From an uncultured bacterium (GTDB lineage: Bacteria; Bacillota_I; Bacilli_A; Acholeplasmatales; Anaeroplasmataceae): a stretch of 64,000 nucleotides of DNA. Below the pieces are notes generated by a model. It had not been told where the DNA came from. It saw nothing but the letters and a program-made list of their open reading frames with translations, and ran no database searches. The position numbers and the translations under genes were made by a program. Location of the stretch: contig CASETY010000001.1 of NCBI GenBank assembly GCA_949291115.1, positions 1 through 64,000 of the forward strand, in the 5' to 3' direction. Positions 4,023 through 58,616 of the stretch are shown here, in pieces (positions within the stretch are counted from its first letter, which is position 1; the number at the start of each line of letters is the position of its first letter).

Positions 4023-5576
4023 ATGAAATTTGAAGTTATTTATAAAACTGCTCGTAGTTTAACAATCGAACTTGTTAATAACAATCCTTATTATTCTTTA
4101 GATAAATATGATTTATATTTAAATGAAGAAGAGGTTATTAAAGGTGGTAATTTAAATGTAGTATCTTTATTTAATTTAACACCTAATACACGTTATACTT
4201 TATCTTTAGTTTACAATAATGTTAAAGAAACATTAGTGGTACAAACTTTAGATGAAGTAGTAACTATTGACGTTACTTTAATGGGTGCTAAGGGTGATGG
4301 CAAGACTTTAAATACTAACTTTATTCAAGCGGCTATGGAAGCATGTCCTAAAAATGGTCGTGTTTATATTCCAGCTGGTGAATATGTTACTGGTCCACTT
4401 TTCTTAAAGAGTGATATTACTATTGAACTTGCTAAAGGTGCACATTTAATTGGGGCGACTGATCGTAATTTATATCCAATCTTACCTGGTATGATTTATC
4501 TAACTAATGAAGAAGATGAATATAATTTAGGTTCATGGGAAGGCAATCCATTAGATTGTTTTGCCTCTATTATAACTGGTATTAATGCGAAAAACGTTAA
4601 TATTATTGGTGAAGGTGTAATTGATGGTAATGCTCAAAATAGTGATTGGTGGATTAACCCAAGAGAAAAAAGAGGGGCATGGCGTCCTCGTGGTGTATTC
4701 TTAAATCATTGTGAAAATATTAATTTCCAAGGTGTTACAGTAACTAATACACCATCATGGAACTTACATCCATATTTTTCAAATAATATTAGATTTATTG
4801 ATTTAAAATTAATAAGTCCAAAGAATTCACCAAACACAGATGGTTGTGACCCTGAATCATGTAATAATGTTGATATTATTGGGGTATATTTTTCTGTAGG
4901 TGATGATTGTATTGCGATTAAATCTGGTAAGATTTACATGGGTCGTAAATATAAAAAACCAAGTCAAAACTTTAACATTCGTAACTGTTCAATGAACTTT
5001 GGACACGGTGCGGTTGTTTTAGGTAGTGAAATGGCTGGTGGCATTAAAAATATTGATGTTTCAAAATGTCTATTTAATCAAACTGATCGTGGCTTACGTA
5101 TTAAAACAAGACGTGGTCGTGGTAAAGATGCCGTAATTGATGGTATCATATTTGAAAACATTAAGATGACTGATGTTTTAACTCCACTTGTTATTAATAT
5201 GTTCTATTTCTGTGATCCTGATGGTAAGACGGAATATGTTTATTCTAAAGAAAAATTACCAGTTGATGATCGTACACCATATTTAGGCAAATTTACTTTT
5301 AAAGATATTGATTGTGAAAATGTAAATGTGGCGGCAGGTGCTTTTTATGGCTTGCCAGAACAACCTATAAAAGAAATTAATTTTGATAATGTTACTTTCC
5401 AATATGCTAAAGACCCAGTAGAAGGTCGTCCTGCTATGATGAGCTTCTTAGATCCGATGAAAGGTAAAGGTTTACTTTTTAATTATGTAAATCGTGTTAA
5501 CATTAAAAATGTTAAATTTATTGGTTTAAAGGATAAAGAATACGAGCTTAAAGAAGTAAATGAATTTAATAATTAG
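4023..5576 (+). CDS. GH28 polygalacturonase, predicted cytoplasmic
   Basis: The 517-residue enzyme hydrolyses alpha-1,4-galacturonan or its oligomers. All four GH28 motifs are visible: NTDG at 271-274, GDD at 293-295 (with D273, D294 and D295 as the expected catalytic acids), GHG at 327-329 and RIK at 359-361. The body shows the right-handed beta-helix repeat style. Residues 1-80 look like a fibronectin type III-like domain (NLTPNTRYTLSLVY), as in related bacterial exo-acting enzymes. There is no signal peptide, so it probably acts on imported oligogalacturonides. It is the last gene of the transporter operon; its product feeds the uxaC-uxaB-uxaA pathway encoded at 17.9-22.3 kb. Exo versus endo action and exact substrate are not provable here. 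Confidence 0.93.
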   Translation: MKFEVIYKTARSLTIELVNNNPYYSLDKYDLYLNEEEVIKGGNLNVVSLFNLTPNTRYTLSLVYNNVKETLVVQTLDEVVTIDVTLMGAKGDGKTLNTNFIQAAMEACPKNGRVYIPAGEYVTGPLFLKSDITIELAKGAHLIGATDRNLYPILPGMIYLTNEEDEYNLGSWEGNPLDCFASIITGINAKNVNIIGEGVIDGNAQNSDWWINPREKRGAWRPRGVFLNHCENINFQGVTVTNTPSWNLHPYFSNNIRFIDLKLISPKNSPNTDGCDPESCNNVDIIGVYFSVGDDCIAIKSGKIYMGRKYKKPSQNFNIRNCSMNFGHGAVVLGSEMAGGIKNIDVSKCLFNQTDRGLRIKTRRGRGKDAVIDGIIFENIKMTDVLTPLVINMFYFCDPDGKTEYVYSKEKLPVDDRTPYLGKFTFKDIDCENVNVAAGAFYGLPEQPIKEINFDNVTFQYAKDPVEGRPAMMSFLDPMKGKGLLFNYVNRVNIKNVKFIGLKDKEYELKEVNEFNN

Positions 5577-7513: not shown

Positions 7514-9586
7514 TTGATATTTTCAGCTTTTTTAGATGCTGTCGATGAAATAACAGTTTTAGTTGATAAAAGTATAATTATTGATAATGATTTTATTTTA
7601 GAATATAATGACAATTTATATAAATTAAACATTAAATATAAAGTAGAAGAATATAGCTGGTTTAAATATATCTTAATTAATCCAGTTATTTTAGATATGA
7701 CCGTTGACATTCATATTAAAAATGGTGTTAATGAAACTTTATTATATACAGGTAGTTTTGTAAGAGATCCACGTTTTGATGAATATTATAGTTATGATGG
7801 TAATTTAGGTGTCTTCTATACGAAAGAAGAAACTGTTTTTCGTATTTGGTCACCAGTAGCTAAAGAAATTTATTTAGACTTAGATACTAAAGCTGGTAAA
7901 CCATATACTATTGCTTTATCGCATAAAGGTAGAGGACTATGGATGGTTCGTTTACAAGGTGATTTTGAAGGAAGTATGTATCGTTATCGTGTTCGCATTT
8001 TTGATGAATATAAGGTGATTACAGACCCTTATGGTGTATCTTCTAATAGTAACGCTAATTATAATTATGTAATAGATCCAGCAAAAATAAGAAGCTTTAA
8101 TTATCCAAAACCAGAGTTTTCTGGTATTTATACTGATGCGATTGTTTATGAAGCATCAGTTAGAGATTTAACTAGTAAATTAGATATAGATAACAAAGGA
8201 ACTTTTAAAGCTTTAACTAATAAATTAACTACTAAAAAAGGTAAAGCAGCTGGTCTAGATTATATTGCTTCTTTAGGAATTACTCATTTACAATTAATGC
8301 CAATCTTTGATTTTTATGGTATTAGTGATAAGAATCCTCTTCGTTATTATAATTGGGGGTATAATCCGATACAATATTTTGTGCCTAAAGGAGCTTATGC
8401 AACTAATCCTGATGATCCTTATTTAAGAATTAATGAATTAATTGAGTTAATTGATAGATGCCATCAATATGGTATGCTAGTTAATATGGATGTTGTTTTT
8501 AATCATGTAAATGATATGAAAAAATTTCCTTTAGATAATTTAGTGCCGGGCTATTTTTTTAGAACGGAAAATGGTTATTGTACTAATGTGTCTGGCTGTG
8601 GAAATGATTTTGCCACTGAAAGAAAAATGGCTCAAAAGTTTGTTTTAGATAATTTGGTTTATATGACTAAGACTTATCATTTTAGTGGTTATCGTTTTGA
8701 CTTAATGGGTCTTTTAGATATAGATACCTTAAATAAGGCCGAAGCTTTACTTAAGAAAATAGATCCAAATATTATGTTATATGGTGAAGGTTGGAATATG
8801 CCAAATACTTTGCCTGATAACATGCGTCCGCATACACTAAATTATCGTTATATTCCAGCTTATGCTTTCTTTAATGATAAGTTTAGAGACTATTTAAAAG
8901 GTTCTCAATGGTCTAAAAATTTAGGCTATTTAATGACTGGTAGTAAAAATGATTATGACTTATATCATTTAGTAACAGGTTCTTTTTTAGATTATTATTA
9001 TTTTGATAATCCACTTCATAGTTTAAATTATATTGAATGTCACGATAATTATACTTTATATGATTATCTTAAGTCTTTTGATGTACGTTTTAAAGAACAA
9101 GATGTTTATGAAGCTTGTAAACTTGGCTTAAGTTTAGTAATTTTAAGTCTTGGTATTCCTTTTATCCACTGTGGCCAAGAATTTTTAAGAACTAAAAATG
9201 GTGTTGAAAATTCTTATAATAGTGGTGATGATATAAACGGCGTTGATTGGGATCGTAAAGATACTTATTTAGCTTTGGAACAAACAGTTAGAGACTTAAT
9301 TAAAATAAGAAAAGAATATAGTGTATTTAGAGAATATCGACCAGAAGTTATCATTCAAAAAGTAACTTATTTAAAAGATTTTTCTTATGGTAATAACTTT
9401 ACTTATAAATTAACAGCTGATAATTATGAATTAATTTTAGTTGTTAAGGGCAAAAAAGAACGTTTTGAAGTTAGACCAGAAGATAATGTAACTTTAATTT
9501 TTGATAGTAATAAATTATGTGATATAAAGAGTCGTAAGTTTGTTTTTAAACGTAAAGGCATTTATATCTTTAGGAGGGATTTGTAG
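7514..9586 (+). CDS. pulA: Type I pullulanase (GH13)
   Basis: The enzyme (690 residues from the TTG at 7514) cleaves alpha-1,6 branches in glycogen, pullulan or limit dextrins. The type I pullulanase signature YNWGYNP is near residue 280. The GH13 regions follow: MDVVFNH near 330, the nucleophile Asp in GYRFDLMG near 395, the acid Glu in YGEGWN near 424, and the third Asp in ECHDNY near 510. Before the barrel are an N-terminal beta domain and a CBM48-like domain (FRIWSPVAKEIYLDL). There is no signal peptide, so it acts inside the cell, probably debranching stored glycogen with glgB and glgP products at 61.6-64 kb. The TTG at 7514 fits GGAG spacing better than the TTG at 7505. The yhaM-like gene overlaps its stop by one base. 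Confidence 0.95.
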   Translation: MIFSAFLDAVDEITVLVDKSIIIDNDFILEYNDNLYKLNIKYKVEEYSWFKYILINPVILDMTVDIHIKNGVNETLLYTGSFVRDPRFDEYYSYDGNLGVFYTKEETVFRIWSPVAKEIYLDLDTKAGKPYTIALSHKGRGLWMVRLQGDFEGSMYRYRVRIFDEYKVITDPYGVSSNSNANYNYVIDPAKIRSFNYPKPEFSGIYTDAIVYEASVRDLTSKLDIDNKGTFKALTNKLTTKKGKAAGLDYIASLGITHLQLMPIFDFYGISDKNPLRYYNWGYNPIQYFVPKGAYATNPDDPYLRINELIELIDRCHQYGMLVNMDVVFNHVNDMKKFPLDNLVPGYFFRTENGYCTNVSGCGNDFATERKMAQKFVLDNLVYMTKTYHFSGYRFDLMGLLDIDTLNKAEALLKKIDPNIMLYGEGWNMPNTLPDNMRPHTLNYRYIPAYAFFNDKFRDYLKGSQWSKNLGYLMTGSKNDYDLYHLVTGSFLDYYYFDNPLHSLNYIECHDNYTLYDYLKSFDVRFKEQDVYEACKLGLSLVILSLGIPFIHCGQEFLRTKNGVENSYNSGDDINGVDWDRKDTYLALEQTVRDLIKIRKEYSVFREYRPEVIIQKVTYLKDFSYGNNFTYKLTADNYELILVVKGKKERFEVRPEDNVTLIFDSNKLCDIKSRKFVFKRKGIYIFRRDL

Positions 9587-10479
9587 TGACCATTTACGGC
9601 GTTTTAGAAACGTCAAATTCAAATGATAATTTTGTTAATTTAGTGATTAGAACTGATAATGATACATTATATAATGTTAAAACTTCAAAAGAAGTAAAAG
9701 ATACATTAAAACCTAATCATGTTTATGAATTTAATTGTGAAGTTAAAGAAGGGAAAAGAACAAGTTATCATTTGATAAGTGTATTAGATGTATCATTGAT
9801 GGAAAGCGAAAAGCGTTATGAAATTTTACAAAAATTCATGGCACATACTGATCACGATTTCTATTATTATAAAAGCAAACTATATAGTTATTTAGCCTTA
9901 ATTGATAATAAGATTATTTATGATATTACCAAAAAAATAATTGATGAAAATATCTTAGACTTCTTAACTTATCAAGGTGGCATGCGCGTTCATCATGCTT
10001 ATTTGGGTGGTTTAATTGAACATACAGTTGGTATGTTAGAATTAGCAACTGCTTTCTTAAAAATCTATGAATATTTAGATAAAAACTATGTATATGCTGG
10101 GGTAATTTTACATGATATTGGTAAAATTAAAGAATATACTGATATTCAAAACCCAGAATTTGCCCTTAAAGGTCATTTGTTAGGCCATGTAGTTATTAGT
10201 GCAATGATGGTTGATGAGGCCGCTATTAGTCTAAATTATAAAGAGGAAGAAGAAATTTTAGTATTAGAACATATTTTACTTTCTCATCATGGCCAGTTAG
10301 AATTTGGTTCACCTAAAAAACCAATGACTCCAGAAGCGATTTTAGTGTGGTATATTGATACTATTGATTCCAAATTTAGTGTTTTAAAAGACGAACTTTC
10401 AAAAATAGAAGAAGGTTCAACTACTATGCCACTTTATATTTTAGATAAACAAAGGATTTATAAGCCTCATAAGAAATAA
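9586..10479 (+). CDS. yhaM: 3'-5' exoribonuclease YhaM family (OB fold plus HD domain)
   Basis: The 297-residue protein has an N-terminal OB-like nucleic-acid-binding part (residues 1-75) and an HD domain. Metal-binding residues are visible in HHAYLGGLIEHT near 142, in LHDIGKIKEYT near 176, and in ILLSHHGQ near 233. YhaM enzymes trim RNA and DNA from the 3' end. The GTG start at 9586 overlaps the pulA stop TAG by one base, implying coupled translation. Its link to pullulanase is positional only. The gene ends in a strong terminator shared with the converging lipoprotein gene. Confidence 0.9.
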   Translation: MTIYGVLETSNSNDNFVNLVIRTDNDTLYNVKTSKEVKDTLKPNHVYEFNCEVKEGKRTSYHLISVLDVSLMESEKRYEILQKFMAHTDHDFYYYKSKLYSYLALIDNKIIYDITKKIIDENILDFLTYQGGMRVHHAYLGGLIEHTVGMLELATAFLKIYEYLDKNYVYAGVILHDIGKIKEYTDIQNPEFALKGHLLGHVVISAMMVDEAAISLNYKEEEEILVLEHILLSHHGQLEFGSPKKPMTPEAILVWYIDTIDSKFSVLKDELSKIEEGSTTMPLYILDKQRIYKPHKK

Positions 10480-10515
10480 AAAGTGCTTGCGAATTTAATC
10501 GCAAGCACTTTTTTT
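10478..10515. terminator. Bidirectional terminator between yhaM and the PrsA-like genes
   Basis: Bases 10478-10492 pair with 10499-10513 (core GTGCTTGCGA with TCGCAAGCAC) around a six-base loop, flanked by A and T runs on both sides. The 3' end of the minus-strand gene starts within it. Confidence 0.9.
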
Positions 10516-13288
10516 ATCTTTCCCAAACCCAATTTACACTGCCATCATACCAATCATTATATTGGTAGTCTGTTTCATAACTTGAAGCTTGATTTTGTAA
10601 ATATTTTAAGTAATTATCCATATTAAATTCTGTTAAATTATTAGTTTTTATTGCTGGTTTAATAATTAAACTATATAATAAGAATTTTTGGAAATCTTGA
10701 TTTTGATATTGAGAAATTACATCATCTAATAAATCACTTAAGTCATTTTGAATATAAGATGGTAAATCTGTAACTGAACCATTAGTTTTTTCTACATAGT
10801 AGATAAATACTTGGTTGATAGAAGGCTTATTATCTCTTTCGCTTTCAGCTAAAGTGTTATAAGCATTAGTAATTACATAAATATCATCATTTTCATCATC
10901 AGCATCTTTTTCATCAATAGTGATTGTTAAGTCTTTATAATCACCAGCTGAGTCGTTAGATTCAGTATAATCAAAGTCTAATGATTCAGAATCATCTGAA
11001 TAACTATTTAAACTTAACATATGGTAACCATATTGAGTATAACATAAGTCTTTTAAAGTAAAGTTAGATGCATCAACATCAGTTTCTGGGAAGAATAGTT
11101 GACCTTGATCTTCCTCATCTTCTGGAATTTCAAGTTCAATTTCAATACATTTTTCATAAATAGCTTTAATATAATCTTGGAATTCAGCTACATAACTAGT
11201 AATTGAATCTTCAGTAACATCACCTAATGATTCAGCTGTTAAAGTAAAGTTATAAGTTTTATATGTATCCCAAGATACACCATTATGATTATTTAAACCA
11301 CGGTTGAAAGCTTCAACAATGTAAGTTAATTTGTCCATTGTTTTTTGGTTTTGAATAGCTGTAACTTCATCAGCGATAGCTTTAGATAAATTTAAAACAG
11401 CTTCTTCAAATTTTACTTTTTCTTCATCTGATAATGATTCAAGGAAAATACGCATATCGTCAGGCGAACCATCTTTATCATTATCAACTGAAATTAAGAT
11501 ATGATCAACATTAACAGTGTAATGTTTAGTTTCAGCATATAAAGCTAAGGCTTTATTTAAAATATTATCTAAGAAGCTAACATTACCAATTTGATGATCA
11601 GAAGTTGCCATATTATCATATAAATAATCTTTGAAATATGATTCAGTAATACTATCAGCTATTTGACTAGCTTTTACATCATCATAATTATAATAACCAT
11701 ATTGATAGAAGTAGTAGTTTTCTAAACCATAAGCTTTATTAAGGTTGGCTTCCCCTTTTTCAAATGATTTTTTTGCATCATCTAAAGATGTTTCTAACTC
11801 TTCTAATTCATCTTCAGTTAAATAAGTATCGATGATTGTTTGATTGTTAAAATAATCATTTAAGATTAATTCAACAACTGTTGAATTAACATTATAAGTT
11901 TTTAATAAAGTATAGAAATCATCTACTTTTAAATTTAAAGCTTCATCAGTAGAAGTAACTAAATATTCGCCGCTAGCATTAGTTTCTACATATTCATAGA
12001 ATGTATAATTACCAGCAAATTGGTTTTCAATAAATGGATCCCAAATTTCAATATTTTTATCTTCTAAACGAGTTTGATAAACATTAGAAGATACAGAAGA
12101 AGCAGAATAATCAATAAAGTCAGCTTTTAAAGTTGCTTTATAAGCTGTTAATTCTTCAGCTGTCATATTATCTTTTAATTCATTATAACTTAATTTTTTG
12201 CTTGATTTAGAAGCATTATAAACCAAATCATAACGATACATTAAAACATATTTACCATTAATTGAACGTGGTGTTTCTAAACCAGTATTATCAGGACGAG
12301 TTTCACTAATAAATTCAGCTTCTAAACTACTATTAATATCAGCTAAATCAGAACCATCCTTATCAGAAACGAAAGTAGTATTTTCATTTTCGGTAATTGT
12401 TTCTCTAGTTAAGTTTTCACCTTTATAACTATAAGCATCATTATATAAATTAATATATAAATCTAAGTAATAATTAGGATCATCTACTGGTGTAGTAACT
12501 TCACTTTTAGCCTTATTTAAAGCAGCTGTAGCTTCTTTTAAGGAATTATAAGTTAAAACAACACCATGAGCAGTATAGTATTTAGCGTTATAATTTTCAT
12601 ATCTAGTTTCTAAAGTTTTTTCATCAATATAATAAGCATTTTTATGACGTTCTTCTGATTCATCACTTATAGGCTTATTATTTTCATCTAAATATTCAAC
12701 ATCACAAACTGATTCAATATAAGCTTTACCTGCTAATTTTTTAGCTAAATCTTTACCATAATAAGTAATTAATTCATCTGTTAAATTACTAAAAGAAACA
12801 GTTTTAGTATCTTTAGTAATAGTATCAAAAGTTAAATTAGCAGTAGTAACACTAATACCAGAGTTTTTCATTGTATCGATGAAGGCATTTTGTTTTTCAG
12901 TTAATTCATCTTCAGTCATAAAACGAAGAGATTCAACAGATGCAGTGCCATAACAAGCACTAGCTAAAGCTTCATCAATAGTTTCTTTAGTTTCAGCGTC
13001 TTTGTCTTTATAATTTTTAAGAACATTAGCTAATTCATCTTTATAAATAGTTTTTTCTAACCAATTAGTAAATGCAGTATAACCAACAGTATATTTTAAA
13101 CCATCATATAATTCTTGGTTAGTAATATTATAACTTGTATTATTTAAATCATAACTAATTAAGGCATCACTATTAATAGAACCATAAGGGTGGTTTTGAT
13201 TTCTAACTTCCTTATCACCACAACTTGCTAAAGTTAAGGATAATGAAAGAGCTAATAGCGATGAAAGGATTAATTTTGGTTTATTCAT
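10514..13288 (-). CDS. Giant PrsA-like lipoprotein 1 (expanded parvulin-type foldase family)
   Basis: The 924-residue product has a lipoprotein signal peptide with the lipobox LASC, so Cys23 should be lipidated and the protein held outside the membrane. Residues 40-80 resemble the SurA/PrsA N-terminal chaperone region (ITNQELYDGLKYTVGYTAF). Scattered parvulin-like segments follow: HGVVLTYNSLKEATAAL near 245, then HILI near 594, SLGDV near 690 and YTQYGYHML near 755. They are separated by long insertions, so a normal catalytic domain is not evident. A D-x-D-x-D-G-x-x-D-D motif (DNDKDGSPDD, about 602-611) resembles a calcium loop. PrsA proteins help fold secreted proteins. The ATG overlaps the stop of its paralogue by one base, after GGAGGTAAT. 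At three times the usual PrsA length, its exact role is uncertain. Confidence 0.75.
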   Translation of the reverse strand: MNKPKLILSSLLALSLSLTLASCGDKEVRNQNHPYGSINSDALISYDLNNTSYNITNQELYDGLKYTVGYTAFTNWLEKTIYKDELANVLKNYKDKDAETKETIDEALASACYGTASVESLRFMTEDELTEKQNAFIDTMKNSGISVTTANLTFDTITKDTKTVSFSNLTDELITYYGKDLAKKLAGKAYIESVCDVEYLDENNKPISDESEERHKNAYYIDEKTLETRYENYNAKYYTAHGVVLTYNSLKEATAALNKAKSEVTTPVDDPNYYLDLYINLYNDAYSYKGENLTRETITENENTTFVSDKDGSDLADINSSLEAEFISETRPDNTGLETPRSINGKYVLMYRYDLVYNASKSSKKLSYNELKDNMTAEELTAYKATLKADFIDYSASSVSSNVYQTRLEDKNIEIWDPFIENQFAGNYTFYEYVETNASGEYLVTSTDEALNLKVDDFYTLLKTYNVNSTVVELILNDYFNNQTIIDTYLTEDELEELETSLDDAKKSFEKGEANLNKAYGLENYYFYQYGYYNYDDVKASQIADSITESYFKDYLYDNMATSDHQIGNVSFLDNILNKALALYAETKHYTVNVDHILISVDNDKDGSPDDMRIFLESLSDEEKVKFEEAVLNLSKAIADEVTAIQNQKTMDKLTYIVEAFNRGLNNHNGVSWDTYKTYNFTLTAESLGDVTEDSITSYVAEFQDYIKAIYEKCIEIELEIPEDEEDQGQLFFPETDVDASNFTLKDLCYTQYGYHMLSLNSYSDDSESLDFDYTESNDSAGDYKDLTITIDEKDADDENDDIYVITNAYNTLAESERDNKPSINQVFIYYVEKTNGSVTDLPSYIQNDLSDLLDDVISQYQNQDFQKFLLYSLIIKPAIKTNNLTEFNMDNYLKYLQNQASSYETDYQYNDWYDGSVNWVWER

Positions 13289-16200
13289 TAGTTATTACCT
13301 CCATTCATTAAAGGAAGGTTTTCCCACCAACCATAGAAGTTATTGAAATCTTCTTCAGCAACACCATCATATTCTTGATAATCATCAGAAATACGTTGAT
13401 TGATTCTTCTAATTTCACTAAAGCGTTTAGCAGATTCATCGTTACTAAAGTTATAAGAACCATGTTTTACAACATAGGCAGTAATTACTTCACTTTGAGT
13501 AGCGTTATCTAAGAATCTAGTAAGAACTGGTTGAAAATAATTTTGAAGGGCAGTTGCGATATCAGTTGGAATTAAATTAGATGTTTCACTTACTAAATAT
13601 TCAAATAAGAAAGCTTTAATTTGATTTTTAGTGATAGTATCGCTATCATTATAGATATTTTCAACAGTTAAACAATCGTTGTTATACATATAATGTAAGT
13701 CTTGATATACATTATAAATATCATTATAGCTTTCATATTTAGCACTAGTTTTACCAGTCGCAGAAGTGATTACATAATAACGATAAGCGTTATCATGTTC
13801 TAAAATAGCTCCCTCATCAGTTGGATTTTCAATATATTGAGATGGATAAGTATCATAAATATTGAAATCAGGTTTATTATAGATTGTTCTAATTTTTTCT
13901 TTAACTTTGTTATCAACATCTGTGCTTGTGTTAGTTACAGTAAGTTCATTAGTAGTTAATACTAAACCTAAAGCTCTATATTTAGCAAAATCCCATTCAT
14001 CACCAATTGGGTCGTAGTTTTCATCATCGAAACGATCGCCTTCTTTTGGTAAGTGACGAGAAGAAGTATTATATTTTTCAACGATTTCTTTTAAGGCATC
14101 ACTATGTGTACTAGAAGAAGTTTCTAATAAAGAATAAATTAAATTAATTAATTCTTTAGCTTCACTTCTTAAATCAACACCTTTTTCCTCACTAACTTCA
14201 TCCCATACAGCAAAATCATCAGCTTCGCCATCTTCATTAATATCTAAATATACTTCTAATTCTAAAGCAGTAGCTGAAAAATAATTTTCATAAGCTAATT
14301 GTGTATATTCATCAAAGAAATTAATAATTTCATCACTGTTGTAATTAATAATTAATTCAGATGAAACTTGACCAACTTTAAATACATCATTAACAATTTC
14401 ATCAATATCAGATGTATGATAATATAACATCAAGAAATTATATTTACCTAAAGACGCAGGATAACCATTAGAAGAAAGGCCATCGTTAGCGAAAATTGCT
14501 AAGGTATATTCGATTGTTTGATAGAAATTATCGATATCTTCTTGAGATATATTTTTATATTCATCAGTTGTTTTAATTAATTTAGTAGAAATTAAGTTAG
14601 AAGCTGTAACTGAACCAGTACGATAATCTAATACATCGAAAATACCATCTTTTTCATCAGTAGTTAAATAAGCATAAACAGTAGTATCTTCATAAGTGAA
14701 TTCAGCTAAAATGTTGTCATTACTTGGACCACTTAATGTACGGTTATAATCATCATTATCTTTAGCATAAGTGATTTCCATTGCTTCATCATAGATTTTT
14801 ACTTTAACATCTTCTAAAACTTCATTGATTTTTTCATCAATGTAAGAAGAAGTTAAGTCTTCATCTTTTAATTTAGAAGTAATGGCTTCATATAAGCTAT
14901 TAGTGTCTTTACCTTCATCTTTATAATCAACAATAGCGTCATATAAATCATCATCAGTGATATCTTCTTCATAAATACCATCATATGCTGTTTTAGTATA
15001 GCTAATCTTATAAGCCATATAATAAGCATCATCTGCACTATGTGGAGAAGTAGTATAACGTGTATAATCGCCGTCTTCAGAAGCTTCTAATGGTGTTTCT
15101 AAAGTTTCATATACATATGTATACATAGACTCACTATATTCTTTTAAAGATTCAGCTGTTCTCTTAACATAATTATTATAATTTTCATCTTCAGCTTTTA
15201 AAGTATTAACGATTTTTTCAATTCTTTCATCATCTTTTTGAGCATTCCAATCACCATCAGCTAATAATTCATCATATTTTTGAATTAAAGCATTAGTTGT
15301 AGATCTTTGGTCAATAATTGCACTTGAAACATCTAAATCTAAGTTTTGTAAATTAGAACGATATGTATAAGTGTAATTATAAATTGCGATGTATAATTGT
15401 AATACTAAAGAGTCACCGAAAGTAGAACTTAAGTCCATATAATCAGTTGATTTAGCAAAATCAAATTCATCATAATATTTTAAATAGTCATTATAATTTG
15501 CTGGTGTATTTGTTAAATAACATAATTTAGAATCATTTACTTTAATACCAAAAGCTCTTAAAGTGTCTGAAGCTTCATCTTGAGAAGCAAATTTAATAAT
15601 GATTGATTCACTATCGCCTTGATTTAAAAAATCACTTTCATATAAAGAAGTAATTTCATCTTTAGTGAAATAACCTACATTATCTTCATCATCTGAGTCT
15701 AAAGCCTCTTCATCTTTTTCTTTAATTTCTTCAGCTAATTTATTTTTAGCGAAGTTTTCTTTCGCTAAATCTAGATAGTAATATTCATAAAGTTTACTTA
15801 AACTATCTAAATCTTCTAAGCTATCATTTTCTAAAGCTTTAACGATATCATCGATAGACATAGGAAGGTCATAAGATAAAGATAATGAATCTGCATAAGC
15901 TAAGATATCATGTTTCTTTGTTTTAGAATCAAGGTCTTGAATCTCTTCATAATGTTTTTCAATATCTAAGTTAAACTCTAGACTATAAACTTCTTCTAAT
16001 AAATAGCTTTTTAAACGAGTTTGATAATTTTTGTAATTAGCGTTATTTGGGTCAGCTAAAACATTTTTAATATCATCTAACTCAGTCTTTAATACAGCCT
16101 CAAGTTTTTTATCCGCAAACAAATTAGTTGCATTCCAACGTAATTCATCCCAAACTTCTTGATAAGAAACACTCTCATTACCAACTGTTAAGTAAGTAGA

Positions 16201-16323
16201 GTTGCCATCAAAAGAAGTTGTGTGATTTGTTTGACATGAAGCTATTGTAAAAGACATTAGCGATAGACCAGCTACCATCGCAAGTCTTTTAAAAGTCACT
16301 TTGTTAAAACTGATTTTTGACAT
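13288..16323 (-). CDS. Giant PrsA-like lipoprotein 2 (paralogue)
   Basis: The 1011-residue product has a signal peptide and lipobox IASC with Cys30. The first mature part (VGNESVSYQEVWDELRW) matches the SurA/PrsA N-terminal helix. The body is very acidic and rich in Tyr, Asp and Glu. Around residues 692-702 lies LDINEDGEADD, placed like the DNDKDGSPDD motif of the next gene and followed by a similar helix pattern (then LKEIVEKYN against LTYIVEAFN). Clear parvulin catalytic motifs are not seen. The two genes form one operon from the promoter at 16361-16389. They are probably surface chaperones or large binding proteins; paralogy is visible by eye, function is inferred. Confidence 0.72.
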   Translation of the reverse strand: MSKISFNKVTFKRLAMVAGLSLMSFTIASCQTNHTTSFDGNSTYLTVGNESVSYQEVWDELRWNATNLFADKKLEAVLKTELDDIKNVLADPNNANYKNYQTRLKSYLLEEVYSLEFNLDIEKHYEEIQDLDSKTKKHDILAYADSLSLSYDLPMSIDDIVKALENDSLEDLDSLSKLYEYYYLDLAKENFAKNKLAEEIKEKDEEALDSDDEDNVGYFTKDEITSLYESDFLNQGDSESIIIKFASQDEASDTLRAFGIKVNDSKLCYLTNTPANYNDYLKYYDEFDFAKSTDYMDLSSTFGDSLVLQLYIAIYNYTYTYRSNLQNLDLDVSSAIIDQRSTTNALIQKYDELLADGDWNAQKDDERIEKIVNTLKAEDENYNNYVKRTAESLKEYSESMYTYVYETLETPLEASEDGDYTRYTTSPHSADDAYYMAYKISYTKTAYDGIYEEDITDDDLYDAIVDYKDEGKDTNSLYEAITSKLKDEDLTSSYIDEKINEVLEDVKVKIYDEAMEITYAKDNDDYNRTLSGPSNDNILAEFTYEDTTVYAYLTTDEKDGIFDVLDYRTGSVTASNLISTKLIKTTDEYKNISQEDIDNFYQTIEYTLAIFANDGLSSNGYPASLGKYNFLMLYYHTSDIDEIVNDVFKVGQVSSELIINYNSDEIINFFDEYTQLAYENYFSATALELEVYLDINEDGEADDFAVWDEVSEEKGVDLRSEAKELINLIYSLLETSSSTHSDALKEIVEKYNTSSRHLPKEGDRFDDENYDPIGDEWDFAKYRALGLVLTTNELTVTNTSTDVDNKVKEKIRTIYNKPDFNIYDTYPSQYIENPTDEGAILEHDNAYRYYVITSATGKTSAKYESYNDIYNVYQDLHYMYNNDCLTVENIYNDSDTITKNQIKAFLFEYLVSETSNLIPTDIATALQNYFQPVLTRFLDNATQSEVITAYVVKHGSYNFSNDESAKRFSEIRRINQRISDDYQEYDGVAEEDFNNFYGWWENLPLMNGGNN

Positions 16324-16360: not shown

Positions 16361-16389
16361 ATTATAGTATTTTTAATATGTAAAATCAA
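16361..16389 (-). promoter_or_regulatory. Strong promoter of the giant lipoprotein operon
   Basis: On the minus strand TTGATT (16389-16384), a 17-base spacer and a perfect TATAAT (16366-16361) lie about 38 bases before the start codon. An AAGGAG ribosome site (minus strand) precedes the ATG. Confidence 0.85.
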
Positions 16390-17899: not shown

Positions 17900-17940
17900 G
17901 GTCTTAGATTTCAGTAGATGAAGTTTTGGAGGATGAAAAA

Positions 17941-19395
17941 GTGAAAACATTAAACAAAGAAATTTGTAATAAGCCAGAACGTAAAGTTAAAGTACTTCAA
18001 TTTGGTGAAGGTAACTTCTTACGTGCCTTTGTAGACTGGATTATTCAAACAATGAACGACAAACAAGTTTTTGATGGTGGCGTTTGTGTCGTTCAGCCTA
18101 TGCCACAAGGTCGTGTAGACGCTTTAGCGGCTCAAGATGGTCTTTATACTCTTTATTTACAAGGTCTTCAAAATGGTGAAAAAGTTCGTACTCATCAAGT
18201 AATTGATGTATTACAAGATTTTGTAAATCCATTTACAGACTATGCTAAATATTTAGATTATGCTAAGAGCGAAGACTTAGAATTTGTTATTAGTAATACT
18301 ACAGAAGCCGGTATTGCTTATGACGAAACTGATACTGATTTAACAGTTACACCTCATAGCTTCCCAGGTAAATTACTTGCCTTATTAAAAGCTAGATATG
18401 AACATTTTAATGGTGATCCTAATAAGGGTTTAGAAATTATTCCTTGTGAATTAATTGATTCAAATGGTGACACTTTAAAAGAAGTATTAGTTAAATTAGC
18501 TCATCATTTAAATTTAGAACCTGCTTTCATTGATTGGATGGTTAACGCTAACCGTTATTACAATACTTTAGTAGATCGTATTGTACCAGGATATCCACGT
18601 GATAATTATGAAGAATGTTGGAATGAACTTGGCTATGTTGATAATAACATGGTTGTTGGTGAAATTTTCCATTTATGGGTAATTGATGGTCCAAAAGGTT
18701 TGGAAGATAAATTACCTGCTCCAAAAGCTGGATTAAATGTTTTATATGTTGATTCTATTAAACCATATAAAGAAAGAAAAGTTAAAATTTTAAATGGTTC
18801 TCATACATGTTTAGTACCTGTTAGTTATTTAGCTGGTATTGATACAGTAGGTGAAACAATGGCTGATCCACAAATCAGTAAATTTGTAAAAGAATATATG
18901 TATGATGAAATTATCCCTACAATTAAATTACCTCATGATGATATGGTTAACTTCGCTAATTCGGTATGTGATCGTTATGCTAACCCATTCGTTCATCATG
19001 AATTAATGAGCATTGCTTTAAATCATTTCACTAAATTTAAAACAAGAAATTTACAAGTTGTATTAGATAATTTAACTACTTTAAATCATTTCCCTACTCA
19101 TGTATTATTCAGTTTAGCTGCTTTAATTGCATTCTATCGTGGTAAACGTGGTAATGAAGATATTAAACTTCAAGATAATCCTGAATATTTAGAATTCTTC
19201 AAGAACTTATGGAAGAATACAGATGATAGTATTGAAAGTTATCGTGAAATTGTAACTAAAGTTTTAGGTTATAAAGAACATTGGGATGTTGATTTAAATA
19301 CTTTCCCATATGTAACTGATTTCGTTACTGATTCATTATATTTAATTGAAACTAAAGGTATGCGTGAAGCCTTAAAAGAAAAAGTAGGTTGCTAA
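17941..19395 (+). CDS. uxaB: Tagaturonate reductase (altronate oxidoreductase)
   Basis: The enzyme (484 residues) reduces D-tagaturonate to D-altronate with NADH in galacturonate breakdown. The N-terminal VLQFGEGNFLRAFVDWII is the nucleotide-binding start of the mannitol dehydrogenase/UxaB family. The conserved KILNGSHTCLVP block near residue 280 holds the catalytic Lys of the family, and DRIVPGYPRD near 217 fits UxaB rather than mannonate enzymes. The GTG at 17941 is chosen because GGAGGA (17928-17933) is 7 bases before it; a TTG at 17926 overlaps that site. First gene of uxaB-uxaA-uxaC. Confidence 0.93.
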   Translation: MKTLNKEICNKPERKVKVLQFGEGNFLRAFVDWIIQTMNDKQVFDGGVCVVQPMPQGRVDALAAQDGLYTLYLQGLQNGEKVRTHQVIDVLQDFVNPFTDYAKYLDYAKSEDLEFVISNTTEAGIAYDETDTDLTVTPHSFPGKLLALLKARYEHFNGDPNKGLEIIPCELIDSNGDTLKEVLVKLAHHLNLEPAFIDWMVNANRYYNTLVDRIVPGYPRDNYEECWNELGYVDNNMVVGEIFHLWVIDGPKGLEDKLPAPKAGLNVLYVDSIKPYKERKVKILNGSHTCLVPVSYLAGIDTVGETMADPQISKFVKEYMYDEIIPTIKLPHDDMVNFANSVCDRYANPFVHHELMSIALNHFTKFKTRNLQVVLDNLTTLNHFPTHVLFSLAALIAFYRGKRGNEDIKLQDNPEYLEFFKNLWKNTDDSIESYREIVTKVLGYKEHWDVDLNTFPYVTDFVTDSLYLIETKGMREALKEKVGC

Positions 19396-19396
19396 T

Positions 19397-20875
19397 ATGA
19401 ATGACTATATTATCATTAATAGTAAAGATAATGTAGCTGTTTGCCTTAGAGATTTTAAAAAAGGGGAAGAAGTTAATGGCATCTTATTATTAGAAGACAT
19501 TCCTCAAGCTCATAAAGTAGCTTTAAAAGATATTAATGAAGGTGAAGATATCATTAAATATGGTTATCCAATCGGTCATGCTACTAAAGCTATTAAAAAA
19601 GGTGAACATGTACATGTATCTAATACTAAAACAAATTTAAATGATTTATTTAATTATGAATATCATCCACAATTCAATCCAATCGAAACTATTACTAAAG
19701 ATGTAACAGTTGATGTATATGAAAGAGAAAATGGTGAATATGGTATTCGTAATGAACTTTGGATAGTTCAAACTGTAGGTTGTGTTTCTGGTATTGCTAA
19801 AGATATCATTGAAGAATTTAAACGTCGTTATGACACATCTAAAATTGATGGTGTGTATACATTTACTCATCCATTTGGTTGTTCACAAATGGGTGATGAT
19901 CATGTAATGACTAGAACACTTTTACAAGATATGGTTAAACATCCAAATGCTGGTGGTGTTTTAGTTTTAGGCTTAGGTTGTGAAAACAATCAAGTTAGTG
20001 CTTTTAAAGAAACGCTTGGCGATTATAATGAAAAACGTACACGCTTCTTAATTTGTCAAGAAGTTGAAGATGAAATTGAAGCTGGCGTTAATTTATTAAA
20101 AGAATTATATGACAATATGAAAGATGATAAGCGCGTAACTAAGCCGTTTTCTGTGTTAAGAATTGGTTTAAAATGCGGTGGATCTGATGGTATGAGCGGT
20201 ATTACAGCTAACCCACTTGTAGGAGCTTTATCTGATTATGCAATTAGTAAGGGTGCTACTACAGTTTTAGGTGAAGTTCCAGAAATGTTTGGTGCTGAAC
20301 AATTATTAATGGCTCGTGCTAAAAATGAAGAAGTTTTCCACAAAGTTGTTGATTTAATTAATAACTTCAAGAAATATTTTAAAGATCATAATCAAGTTAT
20401 CTATGAAAACCCATCTCCAGGTAATAAAAAAGGTGGTATTACAACTTTAGAGGATAAATCTTTAGGCTGTACACAAAAATCAGGTCAAGCACAAGTAGAA
20501 GATGTATTAAAAATGGGTGAAAGAATTTCTTGCCATGGTTTAAATTTAATCTCTACACCGGGTAATGATTTAGTAGCAGTAACTACTTTAGCGGCTGCTG
20601 GTTGTCAATTAGTGTTATTTACTACTGGTCGTGGAACACCATTTGGTGGTTTTGTACCTACCATTAAGATTTCAAGTAATACACGTTTATATGAACATAA
20701 ACAAAATTGGATTGATTTTAATGCTGGTGCTTTAGTTGGTCAAAAATCTATGCCAGAATTATTATCAGATTTTGTTGATTATATTGCTAGTGTTGCTTCT
20801 GGTAAAACTAAAACTAAAAATGAAATTAATGAATTTAGAGAAATCTCTATTTTCAAAGATGGCGTAATGCTATAA
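19397..20875 (+). CDS. uxaA: Altronate dehydratase
   Basis: The 492-residue enzyme dehydrates D-altronate to 2-keto-3-deoxygluconate. The N-terminal SAF domain (residues 1-75, with YPIGHATKAIKKGEHVH) and the large UxaA domain are fused as usual. The conserved segments are GYGIRNELWIVQTVGC near 115, HPFGCSQMGDDH near 158, LGLGCENNQ near 194, LKCGGSDGMSGITANPLVG near 258 and TTGRGTPFGGFVPTIKISSN near 415. Conserved Cys residues may bind iron. It starts 1 base after uxaB. Confidence 0.96.
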   Translation: MNDYIIINSKDNVAVCLRDFKKGEEVNGILLLEDIPQAHKVALKDINEGEDIIKYGYPIGHATKAIKKGEHVHVSNTKTNLNDLFNYEYHPQFNPIETITKDVTVDVYERENGEYGIRNELWIVQTVGCVSGIAKDIIEEFKRRYDTSKIDGVYTFTHPFGCSQMGDDHVMTRTLLQDMVKHPNAGGVLVLGLGCENNQVSAFKETLGDYNEKRTRFLICQEVEDEIEAGVNLLKELYDNMKDDKRVTKPFSVLRIGLKCGGSDGMSGITANPLVGALSDYAISKGATTVLGEVPEMFGAEQLLMARAKNEEVFHKVVDLINNFKKYFKDHNQVIYENPSPGNKKGGITTLEDKSLGCTQKSGQAQVEDVLKMGERISCHGLNLISTPGNDLVAVTTLAAAGCQLVLFTTGRGTPFGGFVPTIKISSNTRLYEHKQNWIDFNAGALVGQKSMPELLSDFVDYIASVASGKTKTKNEINEFREISIFKDGVML

Positions 20876-55935: not shown

Positions 55936-56085
55936 GATTTAGATATCTTGACCCATATGACGAGTTATGTCATTAAAATTAGCCTCGGTTCGAATGGCAA
56001 ACCTTAGAAAAGAAGCTTAATAGGTAGAATATGTTAGAAAGGTTAAGGTATTCCTGCTAATGTATAAAGAAATTTAAAAAGGTGA
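55936..56085 (+). promoter_or_regulatory. Structured 5' leader of secA
   Basis: The leader is less AT-rich than other gaps and holds ATGAC-GTCAT (55957-55961 with 55969-55973) and a long-range ACCTTA-TAAGGT pair (56001-56006 with 56044-56049). Within it are GGTTCGAAT and GGCAAACC. It matches no riboswitch I know. The ribosome site AAGGTGAT ends it. Control of SecA synthesis by this RNA is an inference. Confidence 0.45.
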
Positions 56086-56090
56086 TATTG

Positions 56091-58616
56091 ATGAGCGTAT
56101 TTAAAAAAATATTTGATTCTGGTTATAAAGAACTAAAACGTTGCAATAAAATTGTTGAAAAGATTTTAGCTTTAGAACCATCAATTGAAAAATTAAGTGA
56201 TGAGGAATTAAAAGCTAAAACTCCTTATTTAAAAAACGAATTACAAAATGGTAAAACATTAGATGATATTATTGTTGAAGCTTATGCAGTTTGTAGAGAA
56301 GCTGCTTATAGAGTTACTGGTTTAAAAGCTTATCCAGTGCAATTGGCGGGGGCTGTAGCTATTCATGGTGGTAACATTGCTGAAATGAAAACTGGTGAAG
56401 GTAAAACTTTAACTGCAGTTTTTCCAGCTTATTTAAATGCTTTAACAGGTGATGGTGTTCATATTGTTACTGTAAATGAATATTTAGCACAAAGAGAAAC
56501 AAATGGTGAAATTGGGGAAATCTATCGTTTCTTAGGTTTAACTGTTGGTCTAAATTTAAGAGAAATTTCACGTGAAGAAAAGAAACAAGCTTATTTATGT
56601 GATATCTTATATTCAACTAATAGTGAACTTGGTTTTGACTATTTACGTGATCATATGGTTGCATATAAGGAACAAATGGTTCAACGTCCTTTAAATTATG
56701 CTATTATTGATGAGGTTGACTCTATTTTAATTGATGAAGCCCGTACACCACTTATTATTAGCGGTGGTGCAATGGATAAGTCTATGGCTTATATTCAAGC
56801 TGATACTTTTGCTAAACGCTTAAAAGATGAAGATTATGAATTAGATGTGGAAACAAAGACAATCGTTTTAACACCTAGTGGTATTAATAAAGCTGAACGT
56901 TTCTTCGGAGTTAATAACCTTTATGATATTAAATATGTAACTTTAGTTCATCATATAAATAATGCTTTAAAAGCCAACTATATTTTCCATAATGGTGTTG
57001 AATACGTTGTCCAAGATGGTGAAGTTTTAATCGTTGATTCTTTTACAGGCCGTATTTTAAAAGGCCGTCAATATAGCGAAGGTTTACATCAAGCTATTGA
57101 AGCTAAGGAAAATGTAGAAATTAAAAAAGAAACAATTACGGTTGCGACCATTACTTATCAAAATTATTTTAGAATGTATAAAAAGTTATCTGGTATGACT
57201 GGTACAGCTAAAACAGAAGAAGAAGAATTTAGAGATATTTATAACATGTATGTAGTAGAAGTTCCTACTAATCGTCCAGTTATAAGAGATGATAAACCAG
57301 ATTTATTATTCTATACTAAAGAAGCTAAGTTTAATGCTTTAGTAGAAGAAATTAAACGTCGTCATGAATTAGGACAGCCTATTTTAGTAGGTACAGCTGA
57401 TGTTGAAACTTCAGAATTAGTTTCTCATATGCTGCAAAAGGAACATCTGGCTCACGAAGTGCTAAACGCTAAAAACAACGCTAGAGAAGCAGAAATTGTA
57501 GCGTTAGCTGGTCAAAAAGGCCAAATTACAATTTCTACTAATATGGCTGGTCGTGGTACCGATATTAAACTTGGTGAAGGTGTAAAAGAACTAGGCGGTT
57601 TATGCGTATTAGGTACTGAACGTCATGAATCTAGACGTATTGATAATCAGCTTCGTGGTCGTAGTGGCCGTCAAGGTGACCCAGGTGTATCACAATTCTT
57701 TATTTCCGCTGAAGATAATCTATTAGTTCGTTTTGGTGGCGATACATTTAAAAATCGTTTAGCTTGGGTTATTAGATTAAATGGTTCAGGTGATATGTCA
57801 AAACCAATTGAATCTAAGATGTTTACAAAGATGGTGACTTCTGCGCAACAAAGAATCGAAGGCAATAACTATGATGCAAGAAAGAATGTCTTAAAATATG
57901 ATGATGTTATTCGTAAACAAAGAGAAACATTCTATAGCCAAAGAACTGAAGTTTTAACTGAACAATCTATTGAAGATGCGACTTTAAGAATGGCTAAAGA
58001 AGCTATTGTTTCTATTGTTGGTAGTCATTTAACACAAGTTTCACAAAATAAATATGATATTGATGATAATGCCATCGCAAATGATTTTAACACTCAATAT
58101 TTTGGGCCTAATCGTGTTAATGTTGAAGAACTTAAAACTCGTGATGAAGAACAAATTATTGAATATTTAAATGATATATTCTTAAATATTGTTAATGAAA
58201 AGAAAGAAATGTGTCCAGATAATGTCTTCCAAGAAGTGTTGAAAGCGATTGTGCTTCGTATTTTAGATCAAAATTGGACCTCACATATTGATAAAATGGA
58301 TGGTTTACGTCAAGGTATAGGTTTCAATTCTTACGCTCAACAAAACCCACTACAAATTTATCAACAACGTGGCTATCAAATGTTTGAAGAAATGATGGAT
58401 AAGATTAGAAGAGAAGTGTTAAGATATTTATGTCATGTTCAAATTAGACAAAATATTGAACGTGAAGATAACACTAAAAATATAAGCACTAATCAAAATG
58501 TTGAAGATACATTAAAAGCTAAACCAAAAGTAAATAAACCTAAGGTTGGCCGTAATGATCCATGTCCTTGCGGTTCGGGTAAGAAATATAAAAATTGTTG
58601 TGGTAAAAACGAATAA
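56091..58616 (+). CDS. secA: Preprotein translocase ATPase SecA
   Basis: The 841-residue motor drives proteins through SecYEG. Walker A EMKTGEGKTLTA is near 100 and Walker B AIIDEVDSILIDEARTPLIISG near 205 in consecutive blocks. The helicase end has TNMAGRGTDIKLG and RGRSGRQGDPG, and the C-terminus has the zinc tail GRNDPCPCGSGKKYKNCCGK, which binds SecB or lipids. The ATG at 56091 follows AAGGTGAT; a GTG at 56082 overlaps that site. It is followed by a terminator, so prfB is not simply cotranscribed. Confidence 0.98.
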   Translation: MSVFKKIFDSGYKELKRCNKIVEKILALEPSIEKLSDEELKAKTPYLKNELQNGKTLDDIIVEAYAVCREAAYRVTGLKAYPVQLAGAVAIHGGNIAEMKTGEGKTLTAVFPAYLNALTGDGVHIVTVNEYLAQRETNGEIGEIYRFLGLTVGLNLREISREEKKQAYLCDILYSTNSELGFDYLRDHMVAYKEQMVQRPLNYAIIDEVDSILIDEARTPLIISGGAMDKSMAYIQADTFAKRLKDEDYELDVETKTIVLTPSGINKAERFFGVNNLYDIKYVTLVHHINNALKANYIFHNGVEYVVQDGEVLIVDSFTGRILKGRQYSEGLHQAIEAKENVEIKKETITVATITYQNYFRMYKKLSGMTGTAKTEEEEFRDIYNMYVVEVPTNRPVIRDDKPDLLFYTKEAKFNALVEEIKRRHELGQPILVGTADVETSELVSHMLQKEHLAHEVLNAKNNAREAEIVALAGQKGQITISTNMAGRGTDIKLGEGVKELGGLCVLGTERHESRRIDNQLRGRSGRQGDPGVSQFFISAEDNLLVRFGGDTFKNRLAWVIRLNGSGDMSKPIESKMFTKMVTSAQQRIEGNNYDARKNVLKYDDVIRKQRETFYSQRTEVLTEQSIEDATLRMAKEAIVSIVGSHLTQVSQNKYDIDDNAIANDFNTQYFGPNRVNVEELKTRDEEQIIEYLNDIFLNIVNEKKEMCPDNVFQEVLKAIVLRILDQNWTSHIDKMDGLRQGIGFNSYAQQNPLQIYQQRGYQMFEEMMDKIRREVLRYLCHVQIRQNIEREDNTKNISTNQNVEDTLKAKPKVNKPKVGRNDPCPCGSGKKYKNCCGKNE

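Follow-up and report, generated by a model that had tools for sequence, protein, structure and literature searches.

The locus described here raises the question of what is encoded by two adjacent genes whose lipoprotein products are about three times as long as the foldase PrsA. The genes lie in a stretch of 64,000 nucleotides, hereafter the window, from an uncultured bacterium of the class Bacilli_A (order Acholeplasmatales, family Anaeroplasmataceae; GenBank assembly GCA_949291115.1, contig CASETY010000001.1, positions 1 to 64,000). A preliminary description made from the letters alone had proposed two paralogous lipoproteins of 924 and 1011 residues with a SurA/PrsA-like N-terminus, and both open reading frames were found where it had placed them; the product of each has an N-terminal signal peptide and lipobox cysteine. 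The two products are denoted P1 and P2, and together with their homologues they are referred to as giants.

13288..16323, minus strand: P2 gene, 1011-residue lipoprotein, double PrsA-like, parvulin 2 without the His pair (open reading frame, homologues, profiles, AlphaFold2)
10514..13288, minus strand: P1 gene, 924-residue lipoprotein, double PrsA-like, parvulin 2 with the His pair (open reading frame, homologues, profiles, AlphaFold2)
16234..16323, minus strand: P2 signal peptide and lipobox, Cys30 (sequence; Cys invariant in 49 relatives)
13220..13288, minus strand: P1 signal peptide and lipobox LASC, Cys23 (sequence; Cys invariant in 43 relatives)

The lipoprotein signals were judged from the sequence itself, and the invariant cysteines agree with the lipoprotein character of the PrsA family. 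The larger gene lies upstream, so that the operon reads P2 then P1, with a stop/start overlap of 1 base. As set out below, each chain is related to PrsA twice, and with a probability of about 0.75 the operon encodes two paralogous, membrane-anchored extracytoplasmic foldase or holdase lipoproteins descended from PrsA.

Each chain carries two PrsA-like units

A profile built from 43 P1-type and single-copy proteins (A1) was searched against all PDB sequences, and its top match was PrsA of Bacillus subtilis (4wo7, E 6.1e-7), followed by Listeria PrsA1, with matching pieces from both halves of the chain; the profile of the P2 relatives (A2) gave only marginal unrelated matches, with E values of 1e-3 or worse. 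Ordinary proteins with a parvulin domain, taken from the class, were aligned to give a PrsA reference, and this was compared by hhalign with both families. Residues 6-427 of P1 aligned with PrsA 2-326 (E 7.6e-11) and residues 432-768 with PrsA 33-273 (E 1e-15), and P2 matched PrsA over residues 12-144 (E 1.6e-8) and 510-851 (E 4.2e-12). When the signal peptides were removed, the two matches of P1 stood at 3.4e-8 and 3.3e-17 and those of P2 at 2.3e-5 and 9.6e-14, and none of the controls, 15 column-shuffled and one reversed PrsA alignment, fell below E 0.14. Comparing half 1 with half 2 within one family by hhalign gave only weak matches (E 2e-3 and 4e-4); the repeat is thus visible only with PrsA as the reference, suggesting that the two units diverged long ago.

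The AlphaFold2 models of P1 and P2 had a mean predicted local distance difference test score (pLDDT) of 88.0 and 86.3 and a predicted template modelling score (pTM) of 0.81 and 0.79, respectively. VIA-align placed whole PrsA structures on P1 38-430 and P2 533-972, and a Foldseek comparison with viral structures returned no meaningful match. The resulting map of units is given below, where rmsd is the root-mean-square deviation and the hhalign values are those against PrsA.

11999..13177, minus strand: P1 PrsA unit 1, residues ~38-430 (hhalign 3.4e-8 without signal; 4wo7_B, 244/256 residues, Z 8.0, rmsd 9.6)
12215..12592, minus strand: P1 degenerate parvulin domain 1, residues ~233-358, first parvulin His not at its place (human Par14 3ui4 on 233-356, Z 8.6, rmsd 2.8, 91 aligned)
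10634..11995, minus strand: P1 PrsA unit 2, residues ~432-885 (hhalign over 432-768, E 1e-15; 3.3e-17 without signal)
11003..11530, minus strand: P1 parvulin domain 2, residues ~587-762, His596 and His756 kept (Pin1 structures, Z ~6, 99 aligned; His columns 29/29)
14764..16209, minus strand: P2 unit 1, residues ~39-520, N-domain clear, parvulin 1 strongly degenerate (hhalign 2.3e-5 for the N-domain without signal; AlphaFold2)
13408..14727, minus strand: P2 PrsA unit 2, residues ~533-972 (hhalign 9.6e-14; 4wo7_A, 249/257 residues, Z 6.0, rmsd 15.3)
13753..14286, minus strand: P2 parvulin-fold domain 2, residues ~680-857, His pair missing (6bhf, Z 7.5, rmsd 2.6, 94 aligned; His columns 0/29)

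Collectively, the sequence profiles and predicted structures showed that each chain can be read as two PrsA-like units head to tail, N1-parvulin1-C1-N2-parvulin2-C2, in which the N-parvulin-C order of PrsA is recovered by homology (hhalign, the PDB profile search and the structures). The roughly threefold length of P1 and P2 is explained by this fusion of two PrsA units in tandem per chain. The SurA/PrsA relation of the preliminary description is therefore borne out by profiles and folds alike, and its idea of an expanded family was right; the size is mostly due to tandem fusion of whole PrsA units, two per chain and four per operon, and not to acidic insertions alone, and the parvulin-like blocks that it called scattered prove to be ordered, every chain having two parvulin domains, one in each PrsA unit.

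The giants occupy the position of prsA across the order

Relatives of P1 were found in 43 of 60 related genomes and relatives of P2 in 57 of the 60, with lengths of ~850-1100 residues when complete. The giant family is near-universal in the order, mostly single-copy and located at the prsA position. Nor is it confined to a small group, since, of the 247 genomes sampled from the class, 108 matched the giant profile, some of the weak matches being ordinary PrsA. A Rotamase match over the cut-off occurred in none of the 60 near relatives and in 8 of 14 control genomes, and the giant-rich families (f1, f3, f5, f7, f9, f16, f19, f23 and f24) differ from the families with ordinary parvulins, the two sets being largely complementary. 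Two genomes of the order (G233 and G260; family f3, genus g119; 0.7-0.9 Mb) gave no giant-profile match, and a loss of the giant in these reduced genomes is possible.

The gene order yigZ - pulA - yhaM - giant(s) - yycJ - rlmH recurs across the order and the class, with some losses and rearrangements. In Listeria (prsA2) and Staphylococcus aureus prsA adjoins yhaM, and in B. subtilis it lies near yhaM (PMC3921577); in several relatives with short PrsA proteins, these are also encoded near yhaM. This yhaM-adjacent place, typical of the PrsA family though not universal in it, is the place of the giants as well. Domain homology and genomic position thus agree, identifying the giants as the prsA genes of this lineage, an overlooked form that takes the place of ordinary PrsA in many wall-less gut bacteria and related groups. 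In the window, the conserved neighbours are the following.

9586..10479, plus strand: yhaM-like exoribonuclease (HD domain), the neighbour that anchors the prsA position (library scan, synteny; PMC3921577)
16534..17346, plus strand: yycJ-like protein with a metallo-beta-lactamase fold, conserved neighbour at the opposite flank (library scan, synteny)

Proteins of smaller size were found elsewhere in the class. Those of family f12, with 622-778 residues, carry two PrsA domain sets according to a plain PrsA hidden Markov model (HMM) and match the giant profile with E values down to 5e-28. In further families, 21 proteins of 814-904 residues gave two PrsA matches (E 3e-15 and 2e-17), and nearly their full length can be aligned with P1/P2. 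Judged by their sequences, the smaller double-PrsA proteins of 620-780 residues look like intermediates. The single PrsA, the 620-780-residue double, the 950-1050-residue double with an acidic loop and the gene pair with a pseudo-isomerase, the latter two described below, could serve as a series in which to study how chaperone modules become fused and how catalysis is lost. Other families of the class (loci L144-L150) encode tandem pairs of ~600-residue lipoproteins near yhaM and suf-like genes; the first member has a PrsA N-domain and the HILI parvulin strand, the second was not recognised, and the HMM found them PrsA-like over one unit only.

P1 and P2 are old paralogues

Direct BLASTP of P1 against P2 was not significant (E 0.10), but the A1 and A2 profiles aligned over 862 columns by hhalign at E 1e-146, a value inflated by some single-copy rows that the two alignments have in common. 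Supportively, the single-copy homologues in other families of the order mostly match both P1 and P2. The proposed paralogy was confirmed by these profile and homologue matches, and the sequences are best read as those of old paralogues. In a tree of 78 proteins the P1 group (support 99) and the P2 group (support 100) were separate, and both occurred only in the window's family. Most simply, this tree reflects a single duplication in that family's ancestor; a more ancient duplication followed by losses would be a less simple alternative. A genome of family f4 (locus L061, 5549-11410) has a tandem giant pair of its own, both members with the parvulin 2 His residues, and the two are sisters of each other, which indicates that duplication occurred more than once.

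One parvulin of the pair retains the His pair

The His pair of P1 (H596 and H756) was found in 29/29 P1-type and 17/20 single-copy proteins and in 0/29 P2-type proteins. The column of Phe703 behaved alike, with Phe in all 29 P1-type proteins, Phe or Tyr in all 20 single-copy proteins and aliphatic residues in P2; the column of Thr751, Thr or Ser in P1, follows much the same pattern. Phe703 aligns near Phe134 of Pin1. In the first parvulin domain, most members have no clear His at the matching place. Among the parvulin domains compared, the active-site His pair is therefore found in P1 parvulin 2 and in most single-copy proteins, and is missing from P2 and from most first parvulins. With the His pair kept in P1 only and the first parvulins degenerate, one potential isomerase site is left per gene pair. 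The loss of the pair suggests that the P2 parvulin is inactive, and from the alignments the gene pair looks like one possible isomerase (P1) and one pseudo-isomerase (P2).

An acidic loop lies beside the putative active site

The motif Dx[DN]xDGxxD, to which the preliminary description had drawn attention as common to both proteins, is indeed present in P1 and P2, and it was found to be conserved among their relatives.

11456..11485, minus strand: P1 acidic loop DNDKDGSPDD (Dx[DN]xDG type), residues 602-611, S1-H1 loop of the second parvulin domain (alignment, AlphaFold2)
14215..14244, minus strand: P2 acidic loop DINEDGEADD, residues 694-703, in parvulin-fold domain 2 (alignment)

DSSP assignment on the P1 model located the motif between the first strand (590-601) and the first helix (from 612) of parvulin 2. 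Its chance occurrence in composition-matched shuffles was 0.6% for P1 and 0.75% for P2. Asp stands at position 1 in 78/78 family members and at position 9 in 74, and position 3 is Asp or Asn in 77; across the 78 proteins positions 1, 3, 5 and 9 are kept as Asp or Asn (positions 3 and 5 nearly always), and position 2 and the others vary freely. The motif was absent from all 33 PrsA and intermediate proteins that were inspected; several relatives of 814-1144 residues do, and some members of the class carry other loops.

Known parvulins differ in their S1-H1 loop, which is Lys-rich in the Pin1 type and in S. aureus PrsA, hydrophobic in domain I of SurA, very short in the PrsA of B. subtilis and absent from Par14; the loop influences substrate preference, with its charge being of importance (PMC2678132). 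The sequence Dx[DN]xDG binds calcium in many unrelated and mostly extracellular contexts, including strand-loop-helix (PMC3123361). The loop of P1 and P2 shares the spacing, the extracellular setting and the strand-loop-helix context of these EF-hand-like sites, and differs from them in its place, since the S1-H1 loop of a parvulin is a setting absent from PMC3123361. We infer from these likenesses that the acidic loop may bind calcium. Taking the place of the Lys-rich, hydrophobic or missing loops of known parvulins, it would be a new, predicted S1-H1 loop type, which would probably hold one extracellular Ca2+ beside the active site and stiffen or gate the substrate groove.

Proposed function and alternative explanations

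Help in the folding of exported proteins outside the cytoplasm, given from a membrane anchor, is the most likely role of P1 and P2. Two PrsA cradles on a tethered chain would hold freshly exported polypeptides emerging from the Sec pore, and the double cradle may offer a larger or bivalent client-binding surface compared with a PrsA monomer. P1 parvulin 2 may still isomerise prolines, and in P2, after the gene duplication, the parvulin fold may have turned into a non-catalytic binding or scaffold domain. The two proteins would probably share some of their clients and might work together as a heteromer. Such giant tandem PrsA proteins, invisible to domain libraries, may be how small-genome Firmicutes and Mollicutes seemingly without PrsA fold their exported proteins.

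Several results weigh against this reading. Pfam and NCBIfam scans found no domain in P1 or P2, the Pfam Rotamase model typical of the PrsA family included, and a Pfam scan of the 43 A1 members gave nothing usable and no DUF3713. Foldseek alone gave a best PrsA-type match of E 5e-3, the VIA Z values of 6-9.5 are in a range reachable by common folds, some rmsd values are large owing to domain hinging, and P2 unit 1 resembles PrsA over its N-domain only. The Asp and Cys of the parvulin active site were not placeable in the P1/P2 alignments, and Bailey et al. (cited in PMC2678132) argue for a structural role of the Pin1 His pair, so that neither "active" nor "inactive" strictly follows from its presence or loss. 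The strict Dx[DN]xDGxxD occurs in 49/78 proteins (24/29 P1, 16/29 P2 and 9/20 single-copy), and members without it mostly keep the acidic spacing, often not the Gly. The empty family libraries, together with an hhalign identity to PrsA of only 13-19%, might be taken to mean that the likeness reflects the signal peptide and the composition of acidic helical lipoproteins on an unrelated fold. That explanation is highly improbable: the matches survive removal of the signal peptide, the E values of the shuffled and reversed controls are worse by many orders of magnitude, the models align with whole PrsA structures, the intermediates match a plain PrsA HMM in two sets, and synteny agrees. The modest VIA Z values carry weight because the profiles point the same way, and descent of the giants from PrsA is strongly supported; their genomic position and membrane anchoring are likewise shown or well backed.

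It is a separate question whether PrsA-derived proteins of this kind are general foldases. P1 and P2 are very acidic (isoelectric point 4.2) and enlarged, their homologues evolve fast (45-50% identity within a genus), and three of the four parvulin domains (both first ones and the second of P2) are degenerate, as might be expected of structural or adhesive surface proteins or of assembly factors for one client or complex. We consider such roles unlikely, given that the family occurs almost throughout the order, mostly as one copy in the prsA position of genomes with no other recognised parvulin, and that P1 retains the His pair, Phe703 and Thr/Ser751, as a kept folding function predicts. Within the favoured foldase reading, the acidic loop might be no calcium site at all, being instead an anionic loop that selects substrates with basic residues close to proline, or an acidic turn facing the solvent. 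The effect of S1-H1 charge on substrate preference (PMC2678132), the many members that retain the acids and lose the Gly, and the class members with other loops speak for this, and we regard it as a real possibility, if short of an even chance; Asp or Asn at positions 1, 3, 5 and 9 with a free position 2 fits metal ligation better than bulk charge. The most elaborate version of the foldase reading, a calcium-gated double-PrsA system with one live parvulin under an EF-hand-like Ca2+ switch and a pseudo-parvulin partner, replacing classical PrsA across Acholeplasmatales/Anaeroplasmataceae and several related families, is doubtful as a whole.

Comparison with known extracytoplasmic chaperones and mycoplasma lipoproteins

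The giants resemble PrsA (B. subtilis 4wo7, Streptococcus pneumoniae 5tvl, Listeria monocytogenes 5htf) in being lipoproteins with the same order of N-domain, parvulin and C-terminal helical segment, in the vicinity of yhaM and in the expected role in exported-protein folding. They differ in having two units per chain and 924-1011 residues, compared with a single unit of ~290, in a degenerate first parvulin, in the acidic calcium-like S1-H1 loop and, in the window's family, in the tandem gene pair; parvulin models are blind to them. Given the departure from single-unit size and from recognition by parvulin models, they are filed as a PrsA-derived double-PrsA family and not as PrsA itself. No paper on a double PrsA in these bacteria was found in the literature searched, which was incomplete and did not cover preprints.

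SurA of Escherichia coli is likewise an extracytoplasmic chaperone that combines two parvulin domains, of which one can be inactive. However, SurA is not a lipoprotein, and its two adjacent parvulins are surrounded by a single chaperone module, an arrangement not found in P1 or P2, where every parvulin belongs to a separate PrsA unit.

The DUF3713 (PF12506) giants of Mycoplasmoidaceae, among which we presume the essential mycoplasma protein Mpn444 (PDB 9gn0) to belong, are also lipoproteins, of 1100-1300 residues and often in tandem copies: of the 60 Mycoplasmoidaceae genomes sampled, 58 have them, many in tandem groups of at least two (L227-L257). Mpn444 came up in the fold search with P1, but the structural likeness of P1/P2 to it is weak (Foldseek E 0.44, VIA Z 3.4-3.5). 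Only the N-terminal 84 columns of DUF3713, signal peptide included, match A1, at E 2.7e-4, and the best match of DUF3713 to the PrsA profile, obtained with the larger set, was not significant (E 0.12). Kinship between DUF3713/Mpn444 and P1/P2 was thus not supported by the profiles, and PF03202, another mycoplasma lipoprotein family tried as the family of Mpn444, proved a wrong and unproductive guess. Giants of the Mpn444 type might nevertheless be a further, strongly diverged branch of the double PrsA, which raises the question of whether these essential mycoplasma proteins of unknown function are extracytoplasmic chaperones.

Flanking signals and other genes of the window

The operon is flanked by a promoter-like site and, between P1 and the convergent yhaM, by a terminator-like hairpin that closes it.

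16361..16389, minus strand: promoter-like site TTGATT-17-TATAAT 5′ of P2, sigma-70-like (10/12 consensus matches; consensus match only)
10478..10513, no strand assigned: bidirectional intrinsic-terminator-like hairpin, 15 pairs, T runs on both strands (sequence)

A ribosome site, AAAAAGGAG, also lies 5′ of P2. The promoter-like site is just upstream as had been proposed, but its earlier rating as one of the best in the window carries little weight, because this AT-rich region shows no enrichment of such sites (47 observed, compared with 59.3 in shuffles).

Elsewhere, the window encodes a polygalacturonase PglA-like protein, a tagaturonate reductase and a galactarate-dehydratase-like protein (4023-5576 and 17926-20875), which suggest pectin or galacturonate use, consistent with a gut or rumen habitat. 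At 56082-58616 lies SecA, whose C-terminal stretch (residues 780-843) matches the hypothetical protein model NF004088.

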